Positions 1,585-38,929 of a DNA stretch of 46,484 nucleotides are shown here, piece by piece. Numbering within the stretch: the stretch's first letter is position 1; every line of letters begins with the position of its first letter. The stretch spans positions 1-46,484 of the forward strand of contig JAGWVL010000006.1 in NCBI GenBank assembly GCA_018970885.1, in the 5' to 3' direction. Under the pieces are notes generated by a model. The model ran no database searches and was not told the DNA's origin. It worked only from the letters and a program-made list of their open reading frames with translations. The position numbers and the translations under genes were made by a program. The DNA is from Actinomycetales bacterium. Lineage in GTDB: Bacteria > Actinomycetota > Actinomycetes > Nanopelagicales > Nanopelagicaceae.

Positions 1585-1695
1585 AGGTCGTTCACGAGTC
1601 CTACGTATTAGCCCCGGCTTAGTAGGCGGCAACCCTCCACCGCGGCGGGGTGCTCCGGGTGACGAACAGGTCGTTTCGGCGACAAGCGCAGGTGA
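1585..1695 (+). ncRNA. SAM-IV riboswitch
   Basis: GTTCACGAGTCC...TTAGCCCCGGCTTAGTAGGCGGCAACCCTCCACCGCGGCGGGGTGCTCCGGGTGACGAACAGG closely follows the SAM-IV consensus known from actinobacteria; sits directly upstream of metX. Confidence 0.9.
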
Positions 1696-32364: not shown

Positions 32365-34266
32365 TTACCCTACGGTAATCGTCACCAAGCTGCCACGTTT
32401 TACCTTGGTGTTGACCGCTGGTGAAACTCTCTTAACAACTTTCTTCTTGTTCTTACCAATTGGTACAACCTTGACCTTTAAACCAAGGGATTCAAGCATT
32501 TCCTTTGCAGCGTTTGCCTCCATCGTGATAACAGTCTTTGGGATGTATGTATAGCGAGGTCCCTTCGAGATCAAGATTGAAACCCTGCCACCCTTATTTG
32601 CAGTAGCACCGCCTGGTGGATTTTGTGAAATAACTGCAAGCTCTGGAACAGTTTCATTAAAGGCATATCCTGCTTCAACAACAAAACCTGCCTCAGTTAA
32701 CTCATTAAGAGCTTGCTCACCACTCTTACCGAGATAGGAAGCTAGCGCGACCTGTTCAATTCCCTTTGATACCAACACATTGACAGTTGTATCTCGCTTT
32801 ACCAAAGTTCCCGATGCAGGCGAAGTTGAGATAACAAAACCCTTTGGTATATCTGAGCTAAATATTTCCGTAATTGTCCCTACAACAAGTGGAGACTTTT
32901 CGATGGCAAGTTGAGCCGCTTCTGGTGTTAATCCTTTAGTTATCGGAACCGCGTAACGCTCAGGGCCCTTCGAAACAATGAGCTTAACCGAGCCCCCCGC
33001 ATCAATCTTTCCGCCACCTGAAGGAATACTTTCGATGATTTTTCCTTTAGGGATTTCTTCATCAAATCTATTTTCAACAACAACTGCGTTTAATCCCAAA
33101 GGCGAAATTACACTGACCGCCTCATCAAAGCTTCCACCAACTACAGATGGAACAACAACACGTGAACCTGGACCGACTAATGTCCACCAACCACCCACGC
33201 CTAAAACAATTGCAAGAATCAATGCGACTTTGCGGTTACGACGAACCCGCTTGCTAGCACGCTGCTTTTTCTCTTCTTTACGGCGGATCTCTTTGGTTGT
33301 CTCTACGACTGGAGCGGTAATTTCAACTGGCGCAACCTCCTCTTTAACCTTCTTGCGTGCTTTTTCACGGATTGGCTCAACTGGAAGATCTAATCCGAGA
33401 TCCATTTGATTTTTGCGGGGATCCAAATCAATCTGAATCTGATGTAACTTTTCTAGGAAATCTCCTGCGGTGCGTGGGCGCTCATCTGGGTTCTTCGCTG
33501 TTGAACTTGCGATCAAATCATCAAGTGCTTGTGGGGCATCTTTGCGCTTGCTGCGAAGACGAGGAATTTCATCATTAACATGCATGTATGCGATTTGAAT
33601 TGGAGACTCTGCTGAAAATGGTTTTTCACCTGTGAGCATCTCATAAGCAACAATGCCTACTGCGTACACATCGCTTCGAGAATCAGCTACACCGCGTTGC
33701 ACCTGTTCAGGTGAGAGATACGAAACACTTCCCAAGATCACACTTGATTCAGCGGTCATAGTTGAACCAATAATCTCACCCCGGGCTAATCCAAAATCTG
33801 CAATCTTGACGCGACCTTCCTTCGAGATCAAAATGTTTTCCGGTTTGATATCTCGGTGAACTATTCCCAAACTATGGGCGGCGGCTAAGGCGCTCAAAAT
33901 GGGAGTTAAATAATTGATTGCATCCTTAATTTCAAAACGGCCACGTTCATTGAGATATTCGCGAAGAGTATGTCCCTCAATCAACTCCATTACTAAAAAG
34001 ACAGCAGGAACTCCGCTTTGATTCCACCCTTGATCCTGCACCGCAACGATATTGGGATGGGATAAAGCTGCAGCAGCCTTCGCCTCCTTGATGAAGCGAG
34101 AAACAAATGATTCATCCTGAGCAAGGTGTGGATGCATGATCTTGACCGCAACTTTTCTATCAAGTCGAGTATCGATAGCTTCATAGATTGAAGCCATTCC
34201 ACCATTGGCGACCTGGCGCAGTAATTGGTAGCGCCCATCAATGAGCTCACCAGACAGATCAGACAT
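32365..34266 (-). CDS. pknB: Ser/Thr protein kinase with C-terminal PASTA repeats (PknB/Stk1-type)
   Basis: Kinase motifs GIVHRDIKPENILIS, KIADFGLARG, SPEQVQRG; transmembrane helix VALILAIVLGVGGWWTLVG; four PASTA-like repeats. ATG 34266 preferred (TAAAAT 6 nt upstream). Confidence 0.93.
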   Translation of the reverse strand: MSDLSGELIDGRYQLLRQVANGGMASIYEAIDTRLDRKVAVKIMHPHLAQDESFVSRFIKEAKAAAALSHPNIVAVQDQGWNQSGVPAVFLVMELIEGHTLREYLNERGRFEIKDAINYLTPILSALAAAHSLGIVHRDIKPENILISKEGRVKIADFGLARGEIIGSTMTAESSVILGSVSYLSPEQVQRGVADSRSDVYAVGIVAYEMLTGEKPFSAESPIQIAYMHVNDEIPRLRSKRKDAPQALDDLIASSTAKNPDERPRTAGDFLEKLHQIQIDLDPRKNQMDLGLDLPVEPIREKARKKVKEEVAPVEITAPVVETTKEIRRKEEKKQRASKRVRRNRKVALILAIVLGVGGWWTLVGPGSRVVVPSVVGGSFDEAVSVISPLGLNAVVVENRFDEEIPKGKIIESIPSGGGKIDAGGSVKLIVSKGPERYAVPITKGLTPEAAQLAIEKSPLVVGTITEIFSSDIPKGFVISTSPASGTLVKRDTTVNVLVSKGIEQVALASYLGKSGEQALNELTEAGFVVEAGYAFNETVPELAVISQNPPGGATANKGGRVSILISKGPRYTYIPKTVITMEANAAKEMLESLGLKVKVVPIGKNKKKVVKRVSPAVNTKVKRGSLVTITVG

Positions 34267-34321
34267 GTGCAAATTTTATGGAGCCGACCATGTACAAGGC
34301 CTAAGGGCGCGCCCAAAAACC

Positions 34322-34813
34322 TTATGAAGTGAGTTTAAACTCGCAGTTTTCTCTCGTTTGATCTGTAGCAAAGTGAATTGCTTGATCAATCTGCCATTGA
34401 CGCATTTGCTTCTCAAGATGTGCACCGTCACGAGCTAAAACTCGTTGTAAACCGGTATCAGCATCAATATCTAGCCAATAGGTTATAGCACCAGCTTCTC
34501 GCACAATTGCTTGTGCGGCACCAACACCTTCAATGATCAAGTAATCGGTGGGCGAAACTATTTCTTCGCGATCAAACTTCATTGAGTACCAATTAAAGAG
34601 CCTGATTGTGCAGTCAACACCGGCTAGGTGAGCCGAACTAATCATGTGCAAAGTATCTGTCAGATACTGGCCAAGAGCGTTCTCCCAGCCGTTATATAAA
34701 TCATCCATGTGGATCACACGAACTGTTGAGTGCGCTGAGTATTCAGCTTCAAGCTGAGAAGCGAGCGTGGTCTTACCCGCACCTGCTGGACCATCAATGG
34801 CTAAGAGAGTCAT
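34322..34813 (-). CDS. Small P-loop kinase, uridine-kinase-like; substrate unknown
   Basis: Walker A GPAGAGKTTL, HMDDLYNGW, YLIIEGVGAAQ; overlaps pnuT-like CDS by 20 bp. Confidence 0.75.
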   Translation of the reverse strand: MTLLAIDGPAGAGKTTLASQLEAEYSAHSTVRVIHMDDLYNGWENALGQYLTDTLHMISSAHLAGVDCTIRLFNWYSMKFDREEIVSPTDYLIIEGVGAAQAIVREAGAITYWLDIDADTGLQRVLARDGAHLEKQMRQWQIDQAIHFATDQTRENCEFKLTS

Positions 34814-35369
34814 TCCATCGTTTCCAGCCGATCACTGCAATTACTGTAAACATTCCATACAAAACTGCAGTAAACCAGTATCCAAGTAATGCGTATTGAA
34901 TGGTTCCAGCTAAATCTACGATTAACCAAACAATCCATGATTCATACTTTTCATAGACCATCATGATCTGAGCGGCCAAACTTCCGATTAATAGAAATGC
35001 ATCTGTCCATGTTGCTGCAGCACCAATATTTGATAACACAGGTGTTAATGCTGCAACACTAAACACCACAGCGATTGTAATAATCCCTCGATTTCGAGTT
35101 GACACTCTTCCCGGAACAGCTCCAGTAGGAGCCCAATCCTTCCAACCGTAAACCGCAGCGATGATAAAAACTATCTGCAGCACAGCGCTAGCAAATAGAT
35201 CAACTTGGTAAAAGAAAACTCCATACAAAGCGCTACTTAAAGCCCACCATGGCCAAGTGATTCTCTTTCCTGTGGTTCCCAGGTACACACCCACAAATGA
35301 TGAAAACGCAGCGATAAATTCTAGAATGGATACTTCATAGCCCCAGGCTGTAAATAATGTCGATGACAT
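34794..35369 (-). CDS. PnuC-family transporter, probably a thiamine transporter (PnuT)
   Basis: Multi-TM PnuC-like protein (W.YALLGYWFTAVLYGMFTVIAVIGWKRW; FIIAAVYGWKDW); TPP riboswitch immediately upstream. Confidence 0.85.
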   Translation of the reverse strand: MSSTLFTAWGYEVSILEFIAAFSSFVGVYLGTTGKRITWPWWALSSALYGVFFYQVDLFASAVLQIVFIIAAVYGWKDWAPTGAVPGRVSTRNRGIITIAVVFSVAALTPVLSNIGAAATWTDAFLLIGSLAAQIMMVYEKYESWIVWLIVDLAGTIQYALLGYWFTAVLYGMFTVIAVIGWKRWNDSLSH

Positions 35370-35379
35370 AGTTCATTCC

Positions 35380-35458
35380 TTTCCACATCCGCATTACCGG
35401 ATGGGTCAATCGGTCGGTCTGAATTTCAGACCCTCTCAGCCTTGTAGGCTCCCGTGGT
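35380..35458 (-). ncRNA. TPP riboswitch (THI element)
   Basis: Minus strand: ACCACGGGAGCCTACAAGGCTGAGAGGGTCTGAAATTCAGACCGACCGATTGACCCATCCGGTAATGCGGATGTGG; contains CTGAGAGG, a P3 hairpin GGTCTGAA/TTCAGACC, and CATCCGGTAATGCGGATG; P1 CCAC/GTGG. Confidence 0.88.
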
Positions 35459-35462
35459 CGTT

Positions 35463-35468
35463 ACTTTA
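35463..35468 (-). promoter_or_regulatory. Candidate -10 element for the TPP-riboswitch transcript, overlapping the crtB stop codon
   Basis: TAAAGT on the minus strand about 6 nt before the riboswitch 5' end. Confidence 0.4.
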
Positions 35469-36368
35469 GCGTGAAGTGAGTTGGCGCTTCACAAAAGCGG
35501 TACCTGCAACACGAATTCTTCTGGCGGTAGATGTCTTTGCACGATGATTAAAGATGTCATACCCAATCTTTTCAACCTCATCCACAATTCCACAATACAA
35601 AGTGCTTGCGGCTTCAATACATGGACGGCTTGATGCCTCCAGCATCTTTATCCCAGGAGCAGCCTCTGTTTGCAATTGCCGAACCCTTGCAATTTGGAAC
35701 TTCAAAGCATCAATTATTTCTGGAGTTAAAACACGGTCCTCCAGCATTTCACGTGTAACCCCAAACTGACCTAACTCCTTGAGCGGTAGGTACACACGTC
35801 CGCGATCAAGATCCTCATCTACATCGCGAATAAAGTTAGCTAACTGAAAAGCGATACCCAGCTTTTTAGCGGCTTCAAATGCATCATTGTGAAGTGGCCC
35901 CAAAATAGGAACCATCTCTAAACCGATTACAGCGGCTGAGCCATATACATACTCCAGTAGGTCTTCGTAACTTTCATACTCTTGAACAGTTAAGTCCATC
36001 GTCATCGAATGCAAAAAAGCTTCAAAGTGTTGGTGGGGGATTTCAAAACGTTTGACAGTATCGATCAAGGCACGACCTACATGATCTTGGCTAATTCCTT
36101 TTTTAAGGTCTGCCAAAACTCCATTTCCCCACGTGCTCAAAACTTCAGCCTTTTCCTCCACACTGAGCTCTGATGCCAAATCATCAACGATCTCATCGGC
36201 GTATCGAGCAAATCCATACAGCGCATGAACATAGGGACGCTTTGCCTTGGGTAACAACAAGGTCGCTAGGTAATAAGTCTTTCCGTGCAATGCATTGAGC
36301 CGCTTGCACTCTTCATAAGATGCACGAAGATCGGGATCTGTAATCCCTGCAGCGGTTAACTCATCCAT
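35466..36368 (-). CDS. crtB: Phytoene synthase
   Basis: YYLATLLLPKAKRPYVHALYGFARYADEIVDD, GLEMVPILG, AFQLANFIRDVDEDLDRGRVYLPLKEL. Confidence 0.94.
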   Translation of the reverse strand: MDELTAAGITDPDLRASYEECKRLNALHGKTYYLATLLLPKAKRPYVHALYGFARYADEIVDDLASELSVEEKAEVLSTWGNGVLADLKKGISQDHVGRALIDTVKRFEIPHQHFEAFLHSMTMDLTVQEYESYEDLLEYVYGSAAVIGLEMVPILGPLHNDAFEAAKKLGIAFQLANFIRDVDEDLDRGRVYLPLKELGQFGVTREMLEDRVLTPEIIDALKFQIARVRQLQTEAAPGIKMLEASSRPCIEAASTLYCGIVDEVEKIGYDIFNHRAKTSTARRIRVAGTAFVKRQLTSR

Positions 36369-37853
36369 TTACTTAACTGGTCCCACAATACGTTCTGCAG
36401 CTAGTCGACCGGAGATCAAAACCATGGGAACACCAACACCTGGTTGAGTTCCCGAACCGGCAAAAACAACATTTTCGATACCAGCTGCCATGTTGCGTGG
36501 TCTAAATGGACCTGTTTGGAAGAAGGTATGTGCGCTAGCAAATGGTGCGCCAGCCTCCATCCCTTGATTTTTCCAATCCAGCGGTGTTGTTATGACTTCA
36601 GTTTCAATTGCATCACCAAAACCTGTGTATCCGCGCTGTTCGAGAGTTTTGACCATGTGATCTCGGTATGGCTGTGTCTGCTTAGTCCAATCAATGTCTG
36701 CCGTCAGGTTTGGTGTAGGAAATAGAACATAGTAAGAATTTTTTCCTGCAGGAGCTAAAGCTGGATCATCTAGTGAAGGGATTGTGACTAAAACACTTGG
36801 ATCACTCATGAGTTTCTTCTGCTTAATTAACTCATCAAAGACGCCATCCCAAGATTGGCCAAAGTGTATATTGTGGTGGGCGGCAAAGTCGTATTTCTTT
36901 GAGGAGCCCACCAACATAGTTACACATGATGGGGAGTAGTTCAGGCGCTTCACGTTCAGAGGGGTCTTTCCCAGCAAATCACGCCAAGCAACAGGAAGAT
37001 CTGGATTTAAAATGATTGCATCGCATTCGATGCGCTGCCCATCTTCGGTGATGACCGCTTTTGCGCGTTTATTCTGTATGTCTACCTTTGTGACCGTTGT
37101 ATTGTACTTAAATTCAACTCCATGCTTTTGTGCAGCCGCTGCCATGGCACGCGGAACTGCGTGCATTCCACCCTTAGGGAAGAACACACCGTTGACTGAG
37201 TCCATGTATGCGATGACCGCATAAATTGCTAGCGCTTGTTGTGGGCTAACACCTGCATACATCGCCTGGAATGAGTACACCTTCTGCAATCTTGGATCCT
37301 TCATGAACTGATTCACCTTTGGTGATAGGCGACGGAAACCACCCAATGCGATAAGGCGGGCAAGGTTAGGAGTCAACAAATTAAGTGGTGAATCAATATT
37401 TCTATCGATGAAATCATTCATTTCATATTTGTATAACTTAGTTACAAAATCTACATACTTGGCATAACCAGCAGCCTCTTCTGGACTGATCTTCTCTGCA
37501 ATTTCAGCTTCCATCTGCTGTGTATTTGCATGAACATCTAACTGGGATCCATCCGCGTAAAAAGCACGGTACAAAGGTGAAACGGGCATGAGTTCTACCC
37601 AATCCTTCATGTCTTCCCCGACACAAGTAAAGGCATCCTGAATTAATGAGGGCATTGTTAAAACTGAAGGTCCGGTATCAAATGAGTAGCCATCTTTTTT
37701 CAACAAACCGCTTCGTCCACCCGGAACTGACTCGCGTTCAATAACAGTTACCTTGCGGCCAGCACCTGCCAGACGTAGCGCAGCACTTAAGCCGGCATAG
37801 CCTGCTCCAACGATAACGACATGGTCAGTGGGTCCTTTGACGCGAGCAGGCAT
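36369..37853 (-). CDS. crtI: Phytoene desaturase
   Basis: VVIVGAGYAGLSAALRLAGAGRKVTVIERESVPGGRSGLLKKDGYSFDTGPSVLTMP; C-terminal FAGSGTQPGVGVPMVLISGRLAAERI. Confidence 0.93.
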   Translation of the reverse strand: MPARVKGPTDHVVIVGAGYAGLSAALRLAGAGRKVTVIERESVPGGRSGLLKKDGYSFDTGPSVLTMPSLIQDAFTCVGEDMKDWVELMPVSPLYRAFYADGSQLDVHANTQQMEAEIAEKISPEEAAGYAKYVDFVTKLYKYEMNDFIDRNIDSPLNLLTPNLARLIALGGFRRLSPKVNQFMKDPRLQKVYSFQAMYAGVSPQQALAIYAVIAYMDSVNGVFFPKGGMHAVPRAMAAAAQKHGVEFKYNTTVTKVDIQNKRAKAVITEDGQRIECDAIILNPDLPVAWRDLLGKTPLNVKRLNYSPSCVTMLVGSSKKYDFAAHHNIHFGQSWDGVFDELIKQKKLMSDPSVLVTIPSLDDPALAPAGKNSYYVLFPTPNLTADIDWTKQTQPYRDHMVKTLEQRGYTGFGDAIETEVITTPLDWKNQGMEAGAPFASAHTFFQTGPFRPRNMAAGIENVVFAGSGTQPGVGVPMVLISGRLAAERIVGPVK

Positions 37854-38929
37854 TAAGCACTCCTTTTAGTTGCGATGTTAGCTAGCTCGACGAGCAAAGC
37901 CTTTCCATCGTTGGTGAAAAGTGATGATTCAGCTGCTTTTAAGGCAGTATCAGTAAGTTTTTCAATAGTTGATTCAATTTCAGCGCGCGCACCGGTGGTT
38001 TCAATAATCTCTTGCAAGATTGCAACGCCGCGAGCATCAAGATCTGCACGACCAAAGTACTTCTGGCAGGTTTCAGCTTGTGCAGGGGATTGGCGTTCAT
38101 GTGTCAATGCAATTAACACGGTGCGCTTACCCTCACGAAGATCATCACCTGCAGGCTTGCCAGTAACTGATGGATCTCCAAAGACACCTAAAAGGTCATC
38201 GCGAAGTTGGAAAGCTTCTCCTAATGGTAAGCCGTAGGCAGATAGTGCGGCGAAGATTTCATTACTTGGCTTTTCGCTCATGGCAGCACCCAAATGCAGC
38301 GGACGTTCAATGGTGTACTTACCCGATTTGTACCGTGCAATCTTCATCGAACGAGCTGTGCTGGTGGCTTTTTGAGTTTGTTCATGAATGTCCAAGAACT
38401 GTCCAGCCATTAACTCAACTCGCATCTCGTTATACAAAGGAATCATTCGCGCATATTGTTCAGAGGATAAGCCAGCACTGTTAATCATTTGATCAGACCA
38501 CACAAGTGCAAGGTCGCCTAGCAAGACCGCGGCAGATAATCCATATTGAGGCGCAAATCCATCAAGTTGATGCTGCACATGAATAGTTTCAAAGTGGCGA
38601 TGAATTGATGGCTTACCTCTGCGTGTATCTGACCCATCCATCAAATCATCATGAATTAACGCACAAGCTTGCAGTAACTCAAGAGCGGCAATCGCACGGG
38701 TAGTTGACTTCTCGATTGCGCCACCGGCAGCTGCAAATCCTGCATAGGCAAAAAGTGGGCGAAGCCGCTTTCCGCTATCTAATAAGAAGGAGGTCAGGGC
38801 ATCTGAGACGGGTGCTAAATCTGATGAGATCGAATTTAGATATGTGCCTTCACGGTTGAGGAAGATACTTAGCTCCTCTTCAACGGCGCTTCGCACACTC
38901 TTTAATGTTGCCTTCGGCTCTGAACTCAC
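37853..38929 (-). CDS. crtE: Polyprenyl diphosphate synthase, probable GGPP synthase
   Basis: GKRLRPLF, ALIHDDLMDGSDTRRGKPSIH, GEAFQLRDDLLGVFGDPSVTGKPAGDDLREGKRT. Confidence 0.92.
   Translation of the reverse strand: MSSEPKATLKSVRSAVEEELSIFLNREGTYLNSISSDLAPVSDALTSFLLDSGKRLRPLFAYAGFAAAGGAIEKSTTRAIAALELLQACALIHDDLMDGSDTRRGKPSIHRHFETIHVQHQLDGFAPQYGLSAAVLLGDLALVWSDQMINSAGLSSEQYARMIPLYNEMRVELMAGQFLDIHEQTQKATSTARSMKIARYKSGKYTIERPLHLGAAMSEKPSNEIFAALSAYGLPLGEAFQLRDDLLGVFGDPSVTGKPAGDDLREGKRTVLIALTHERQSPAQAETCQKYFGRADLDARGVAILQEIIETTGARAEIESTIEKLTDTALKAAESSLFTNDGKALLVELANIATKRSA

Follow-up and report, generated by a model that had tools for sequence, protein, structure and literature searches.

A leader RNA, a PnuC-family gene and a P-loop kinase gene lie together in an acI genome

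The source genome belongs to the acI/Nanopelagicaceae group, its closest named relatives being Planktophila/acI genomes, and the window analyzed here is a stretch of 46,484 nucleotides from it. On the minus strand of the window, a TPP-riboswitch-like RNA is followed by a PnuC-family gene and then by a gene encoding a P-loop kinase (Table 1). A previous reading of the window, made from the sequence only (the sequence-only reading), had described a TPP riboswitch controlling a candidate operon for thiamine capture and trapping. The ORFs and the match to PF04973 confirmed its description of a PnuC-family gene with a 20-bp overlap onto a 163-aa P-loop kinase, and the kinase does contain the two motifs that it gave, GPAGAGKTTL and HMDDLYNGW.

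Directly downstream of the kinase candidate lies a gene for a PASTA-type Ser/Thr protein kinase (32365-34272, minus strand), in an order that the family conserves. Carotenoid genes lie on the upstream side of the pnuT operon (35466-38929, minus strand) and by sequence encode a phytoene synthase, a desaturase and a polyprenyl synthase; crtB often adjoins the kinase site in the family, even where PnuC is absent. Elsewhere in the window, a SAM-IV riboswitch (1590-1694, plus strand) scored 88.4 bits, above its gathering score.

Table 1. Features of the pnuT-kinase locus, in positions of the window
Feature	Position	Strand	Evidence or remark
-10-like hexamer TAAAGT	35463..35468	-	8 nt before aptamer CGGGAG; putative promoter element
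Variant TPP-riboswitch-like RNA upstream of pnuT	35369..35460	-	RF00059, 35 bits; variant covariance model R1, 79.5 bits
J3/2 CUGAGA, pyrimidine-sensor motif, kept	35434..35439	-	Invariant in 56/56 aligned variants
P4-P5 hairpin CCCAUCCG-GUAAUG-CGGAUGUGG	35383..35405	-	Near-continuous helix with one bulged nucleotide, without the J4/5 internal loop
AAAGGA, Shine-Dalgarno-like, between aptamer and pnuT ATG	35377..35382	-	Sequence; putative function
pnuT, PnuC-family, proposed thiamine permease, 191 aa	34794..35369	-	PF04973, E 3.8e-37; putative substrate
Proposed thiamine kinase, uridine-kinase fold, 163 aa	34322..34813	-	PRK06547-like, 98 bits; AlphaFold pLDDT 97; distribution

The leader RNA is a conserved relative of the TPP riboswitch that standard scans omit

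A covariance scan with the Rfam TPP model (RF00059), which the sequence-only reading had proposed, matched the leader at 35363-35465 of the minus strand with 35.0 bits. This was the sole match in the region at the E-value threshold (E 9.7e-5) and the sole TPP-like match in the whole 1.1-Mb genome (E 1.7e-5), but it lies below the Rfam gathering score of 54.3, and a standard scan therefore omits it. The leader is nevertheless more than a chance match, because the same variant RNA lies directly upstream of the pnuC-kinase pair in 68/68 Nanopelagicaceae loci, a co-occurrence of the kinase with pnuT and a TPP-like RNA that the sequence-only reading had proposed to check. The variant was also found at 53 of 54 further pnuC-kinase loci, the remaining one differing by a single loop base.

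Since an alignment of all variants (MAFFT) shifted the 3' arm between RNAs with and without a bulge, a variant covariance model (R1) was built from the unbulged RNAs only. R1 scored the window RNA at 79.5 bits, as compared to 35 with RF00059, and gave 33-54 bits to canonical TPP elements, for which RF00059 mostly gives 52-70.

In 102/110 variant RNAs, 8-10 nt separate the end of a TANNNT motif from the CGGGAG downstream of it, so that transcription probably begins at the aptamer itself; this close -10-like element is not specific to the variant, as many canonical TPP elements of the family share the spacing. The aptamer stands directly before the Shine-Dalgarno sequence and the start codon, and translation of pnuT-kinase is the likely level of control. 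MFE folding gave no evident P1 helix that would mask the Shine-Dalgarno sequence, its flank being paired in only 5/112 folds; P1-like pairing is visible in the thiT-linked RNAs of the second lineage described below.

The pyrophosphate-sensing loop is missing from the leader RNA

In the TPP aptamer, the pyrimidine is bound at U39-A43, the conserved nucleotides linked to the pyrophosphate are G60, C77 and G78, and U59 and A80 lie in P4 (PMC3764141). The leader shares with RF00059 the P2 and P3 helices, an optional P3a, the UAAU loop L5, the position before thiamine genes and the CUGAGA pyrimidine sensor, which was invariant among the 56 aligned variants; CUGAGAGG was likewise invariant among the aligned variant RNAs. 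It differs from RF00059, besides its sub-gathering score and weak P1, in that J4/5 and J5/4, the pyrophosphate sensor (G60, C77, G78 region), are lost, P4-P5 being continuous or interrupted by one bulge. Rfam's own alignments place deletions at consensus A65 U66 in the pnuT-linked RNAs, while the unbulged variants also lack C81 G82 and most others have them changed, a single locus (L004) of those displayed keeping the CG letters.

P4-P5 pairing was scored on 121 RNAs, 11 of them canonical and 110 variant. P4-P5 formed an uninterrupted 8-bp helix in 54 of the variants and carried a single 3' bulge in another 42, together 96/110, and its pairs covary. Two thiC elements (L036 and L045) also scored 8 with the pairing script and were set aside from the variant count: they keep CG yet can pair across a shortened loop, so that pairing alone does not discriminate the variant, whereas the other canonical elements display an internal loop. 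The canonical TPP elements of the family, which precede thiC, thiamine-synthesis genes and transporters such as ykoE, scored 58.8-68.7 bits; they keep CG in J5/4 and, in 3/4 of those displayed, AU in J4/5, where the thiC element is one nucleotide short. TPP elements before other thiamine genes of the family thus retain the pyrophosphate sensor, whereas all 68 pnuT-kinase loci carry the variant.

Judged by these sequence comparisons, the leader is a variant TPP riboswitch and not a standard TPP aptamer. The riboswitch named in the sequence-only reading therefore stands as a genuine TPP-like RNA, but not as a normal aptamer, and TPP cannot be taken for granted as its ligand, since nucleotides at the pyrophosphate site are missing. 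Thiamine or TMP would be a natural candidate, at least as good as TPP, which might in turn be bound through other contacts. If the RNA was such a degenerate yet ordinary TPP riboswitch, one would understand why RF00059 still detects it and why the UAAU loop and P3 are kept, and TPP is the usual feedback signal. This explanation, which concerns only the ligand and is compatible with a thiamine operon, is a serious one to which we give somewhat less than an even chance. It sits poorly with the deletion of A65 U66, with the deletion or change of C81 G82 in most variants and the covarying continuous P4-P5, with the place of G60, C77 and G78 at the pyrophosphate (PMC3764141), with the coexistence of canonical elements in the same family and with the recurrence of the same deletion in a distant lineage. 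Furthermore, the pyrophosphate was reported to be mandatory for thiM switching, with a KD of 50 uM for thiamine versus 50 nM for TPP (PMC4112796). We found no description of a J4/5-less TPP variant in the open-access literature searched.

The kinase has a predicted uridine-kinase fold without the nucleoside-binding features

The kinase matched no NCBIfam model above its cut-off: the nearest was that of the hypothetical protein PRK06547 (NF005115), at 98 bits for an equivalog cut-off of 173, and the Pfam cut-off for the PRK/uridine kinase family was barely passed (22.7 vs 22). The APH fold (PF01636) was not among the best 25 Pfam matches listed for the kinase, which comprised PRK and other P-loop families, and TIGR01378/PF04263 (ThiN/TPK) was absent among the listed matches, in agreement with the sequence-only reading, which had not recognized the protein as a canonical thiamine kinase or pyrophosphokinase. 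ThiK (YcfN) of E. coli, which would share with it the proposed conversion of thiamine into TMP feeding ThiL, has an APH fold, unlike the P-loop, PRK/uridine-kinase fold of the window kinase.

The structure comparison that the sequence-only reading had suggested pointed in the same direction as the profiles. The AlphaFold model of the kinase has a mean pLDDT of 97.3, and its top Foldseek matches are uridine-cytidine kinases, with a TM-score of about 0.8 between the predicted structure and uridine-cytidine kinase 2. The protein resembles PRK06547 and uridine kinases over its full length and in its fold, but it falls below the equivalog cut-offs and lacks the nucleoside-binding segment: in an alignment with the Thermus uridine kinase, this segment (NYDHPDAFD) is an insertion relative to the kinase family, in which other residues also stand in place of F and H in YDF..H, with an invariant Trp. 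Among 39 aligned family members, the invariant residues are D7, G8, A10, G11, G13, K14, D37, Y40, G42, W43, W75, E95-G98, W113, R124, R128 and D129, and the three tryptophans could stack on thiamine. A uridine-kinase fold modeled without nucleoside-binding features makes a new substrate plausible. No PnuT-linked, uridine-kinase-like thiamine kinase was described in the open-access literature searched.

The kinase is distributed as a thiamine kinase would be in Nanopelagicaceae

The same 81 Nanopelagicaceae genomes were profiled for each thiamine gene. The kinase was found in 75/81 and ThiL, the TMP kinase, in 78/81, including all 55 high-quality genomes, while thiamine pyrophosphokinase (TPK) was found in 0/81, with positive-control genomes that did give matches. 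ThiC was detected in two genomes of the 81 and ThiE, at real scores, in seven. Since ThiL is conserved, TPK absent and ThiE rare, most cells must form TMP from thiamine with neither ThiE nor TPK, and the enzyme that the pathway lacks is a thiamine kinase; by gene content, the kinase fills this thiamine-to-TMP gap (EC 2.7.1.89) in genomes that have ThiL and lack TPK and ThiE.

The kinase was missing only from five ThiE-positive genomes (G005, G014, G020, G032 and G044) and from G056, which is 60% complete. The association of kinase loss with ThiE (Fisher p = 4.8e-6) is uncorrected for relatedness and overstates independence, as the losses in ThiE-positive genomes fall in only two genera. In two of the kinase-lacking genomes, TPP elements precede thiO/thiG/thiE genes (G005 and G014) and, in G005, also a CytX-like HMP permease, so that a thiamine kinase would not be needed there. 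Comparative genomics thus supports a role of the protein as a thiamine kinase producing TMP for ThiL. HMP and thiazole, which the sequence-only reading had also considered as substrates, are unlikely and were rejected, as most family genomes lack the ThiE that would join them.

Another hypothesis was that the protein shares no more than a transcript with pnuT, as a general nucleoside kinase or an unknown PRK06547-family kinase with a housekeeping role, and that an unrecognized ThiK of the APH type phosphorylates thiamine. The PRK06547-like family is indeed widespread in Actinomycetes without a thiamine context (139/217 genomes at class level), APH proteins are present in the genus (APH-fold proteins in 11/13 genomes searched) and the chromosomal site of the kinase is kept without PnuC. 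We nevertheless consider this hypothesis unlikely, because the kinase losses follow ThiE, the nucleoside-binding features of uridine kinases are missing and the absence of TPK together with the conservation of ThiL leaves exactly the gap of a thiamine kinase.

Across the class, the PRK06547-like family showed no correlation with ThiE in 217 genomes (p = 0.38), and a class-wide role of the family as a thiamine kinase was not supported. Homologues in Cellulomonas and Sanguibacter (Micrococcales; L184 and L190) lie beside tyrS and what is probably argH, without a TPP element or PnuC. Because the wider family has no relation to ThiE and has other neighbors in Micrococcales, we restricted the claim to Nanopelagicales, to which the thiamine role may be confined. 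Class-wide TPK matches in 95 genomes, none above the cut-off, were partial matches of ~40 residues (model positions 10-58) in ORFs of mostly ~400 aa or more; they were excluded as TPK and we suspect them to be SteA-like proteins. Five MAG records titled Bifidobacterium breve (L121, L130, L131, L162 and L164) carry acI-type loci, and their titles are probably wrong.

The kinase is kept when the neighboring transporter changes

PnuC lies directly upstream of the kinase in 68 of the 75 genomes that have the kinase. In the others, the kinase retains its site upstream of the PASTA-kinase gene, mostly beside crtB, except in G002, where the contig ends. In genomes where the kinase is not next to PnuC, the TPP element is found elsewhere, before a ThiB-type ABC transporter or, in G076, before a YkoE-like permease (PF09819). 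The ThiB-type assignment was made in four genomes, by TIGR01254, well above its cut-off, in G003 and G011, and by Pfam matches to a binding protein or permease and by sequence in G021 and G033. In G011, a highly divergent kinase (~25% identity; L094, 2295-2840) occupies the same crtB site, and the ThiB-type ABC transporter lies behind a canonical TPP element. That the kinase is kept across these transporter swaps supports a thiamine role, and a nicotinamide riboside or nucleoside role would not predict such swaps together with the pattern of loss in ThiE-positive genomes.

The top NCBIfam models for the transporter itself are nicotinamide riboside PnuC models (TIGR01528, 58.7 bits for a cut-off of 42.45), and the kinase profile picks up an NRK1 chain at 2e-7. 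PnuC might thus import nicotinamide riboside for a kinase of the NRK fold, the thiamine-like RNA being misleading. We regard this as very improbable, considering that a TPP-like RNA precedes the pair at each of the 68 loci, that the kinase is retained where PnuC has given way to a thiamine ABC or YkoE-type transporter behind the TPP element, that it is lost in ThiE-positive genomes and that the same RNA precedes thiT-thiN in a second lineage. With its thiamine-linked context, the PnuC-family protein is instead proposed to be a thiamine permease, PnuT. The capture-and-trapping operon of the sequence-only reading is therefore supported, since the presence of the kinase tracks, over the 81 genomes, the requirement to make TMP from thiamine, and thiamine transporters are its partners.

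A second actinobacterial lineage carries the same loop deletion before thiT-thiN

The variant covariance model was used to search 397 genomes of the phylum and gave matches in 96. Among the best 30 loci, 26 were resolved by script, all canonical except the window and three others. These three loci (G415, G445 and G464), from one genus of another class of the phylum, have RNAs with the same missing loop that scored 62-64 bits and whose P4-P5 reads CCGUUCCG-GUAAUG-CGGAGCGG; the Rfam alignment confirms the same deletions in the two of the three that it lists. The downstream gene encodes ThiT (TIGR02357, 120 bits for a cut-off of 108). In the one genome checked, thiT and a thiamine diphosphokinase gene (thiN; TIGR01378, 111 vs 76) overlap at the stop of the former and the start of the latter.

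A J4/5-less RNA thus precedes a thiamine transporter and a thiamine-phosphorylating enzyme twice, with unrelated genes, which supports the assignment of the kinase. Because both lineages pair the variant RNA with these two functions, the comparison suggests that the loop loss may go with the uptake of thiamine and not with its synthesis. We tentatively raise the possibility, doubtful as it still is, of a TPP-derived riboswitch class with unphosphorylated thiamine (or TMP) as its ligand, which in each of two distant actinobacterial lineages controls a thiamine transporter and a thiamine-phosphorylating enzyme, one of these enzymes being a new thiamine kinase family.

Discussion

We consider it probable that the locus is a thiamine salvage operon, in which PnuT and a kinase making TMP for ThiL stand under a J4/5-less variant riboswitch that probably answers to a thiamine compound. 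Thiamine would enter through PnuT by facilitated diffusion and the kinase would phosphorylate it to TMP, trapping the vitamin in the cell, before ThiL converts TMP into TPP. The kinase would thereby replace the absent TPK and ThiE-dependent synthesis, and also ThiK. The variant leader would set the translation of pnuT-kinase according to a thiamine compound. What the analysis established is the layout of the locus, the conservation of the module, the pattern of gene content, the predicted fold and the missing loop, while the transported substrate, the reaction of the kinase, the ligand and the sign of the switch are inferred.

Parts of this arrangement have precedents. A study of acI genomes reports a THI element before pnuC in four of them, proposes PnuT and describes acI strains as thiamine auxotrophs missing nearly all enzymes of de novo synthesis and salvage (Kang 2017; PMC5301498). 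The pair of riboswitch and PnuT is thus already published for related genomes, and the passages found in that study mention no kinase and no loss of the sensor loop. In Bacteroides, pnuT-tnr3 operons similarly join a TPP-type riboswitch, PnuT and a thiamine-phosphorylating enzyme (PMC5613172), a precedent that we counted in favor of the thiamine operon; the enzyme there is a thiamine pyrophosphokinase, whereas that of the window is a uridine-kinase-fold protein, with ThiL encoded elsewhere.

The loop-deleted RNA, which may sense thiamine, is a natural case in which to test how recognition of the pyrophosphate could disappear from a TPP aptamer; when TPP riboswitches are annotated from loose scans, the J4/5 loop needs to be checked before TPP is assumed to be the ligand. 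Thiamine auxotrophy concerns some of the most abundant bacteria of fresh waters, the acI actinobacteria, whose unassigned step from thiamine to TMP would be filled by a small conserved candidate kinase.
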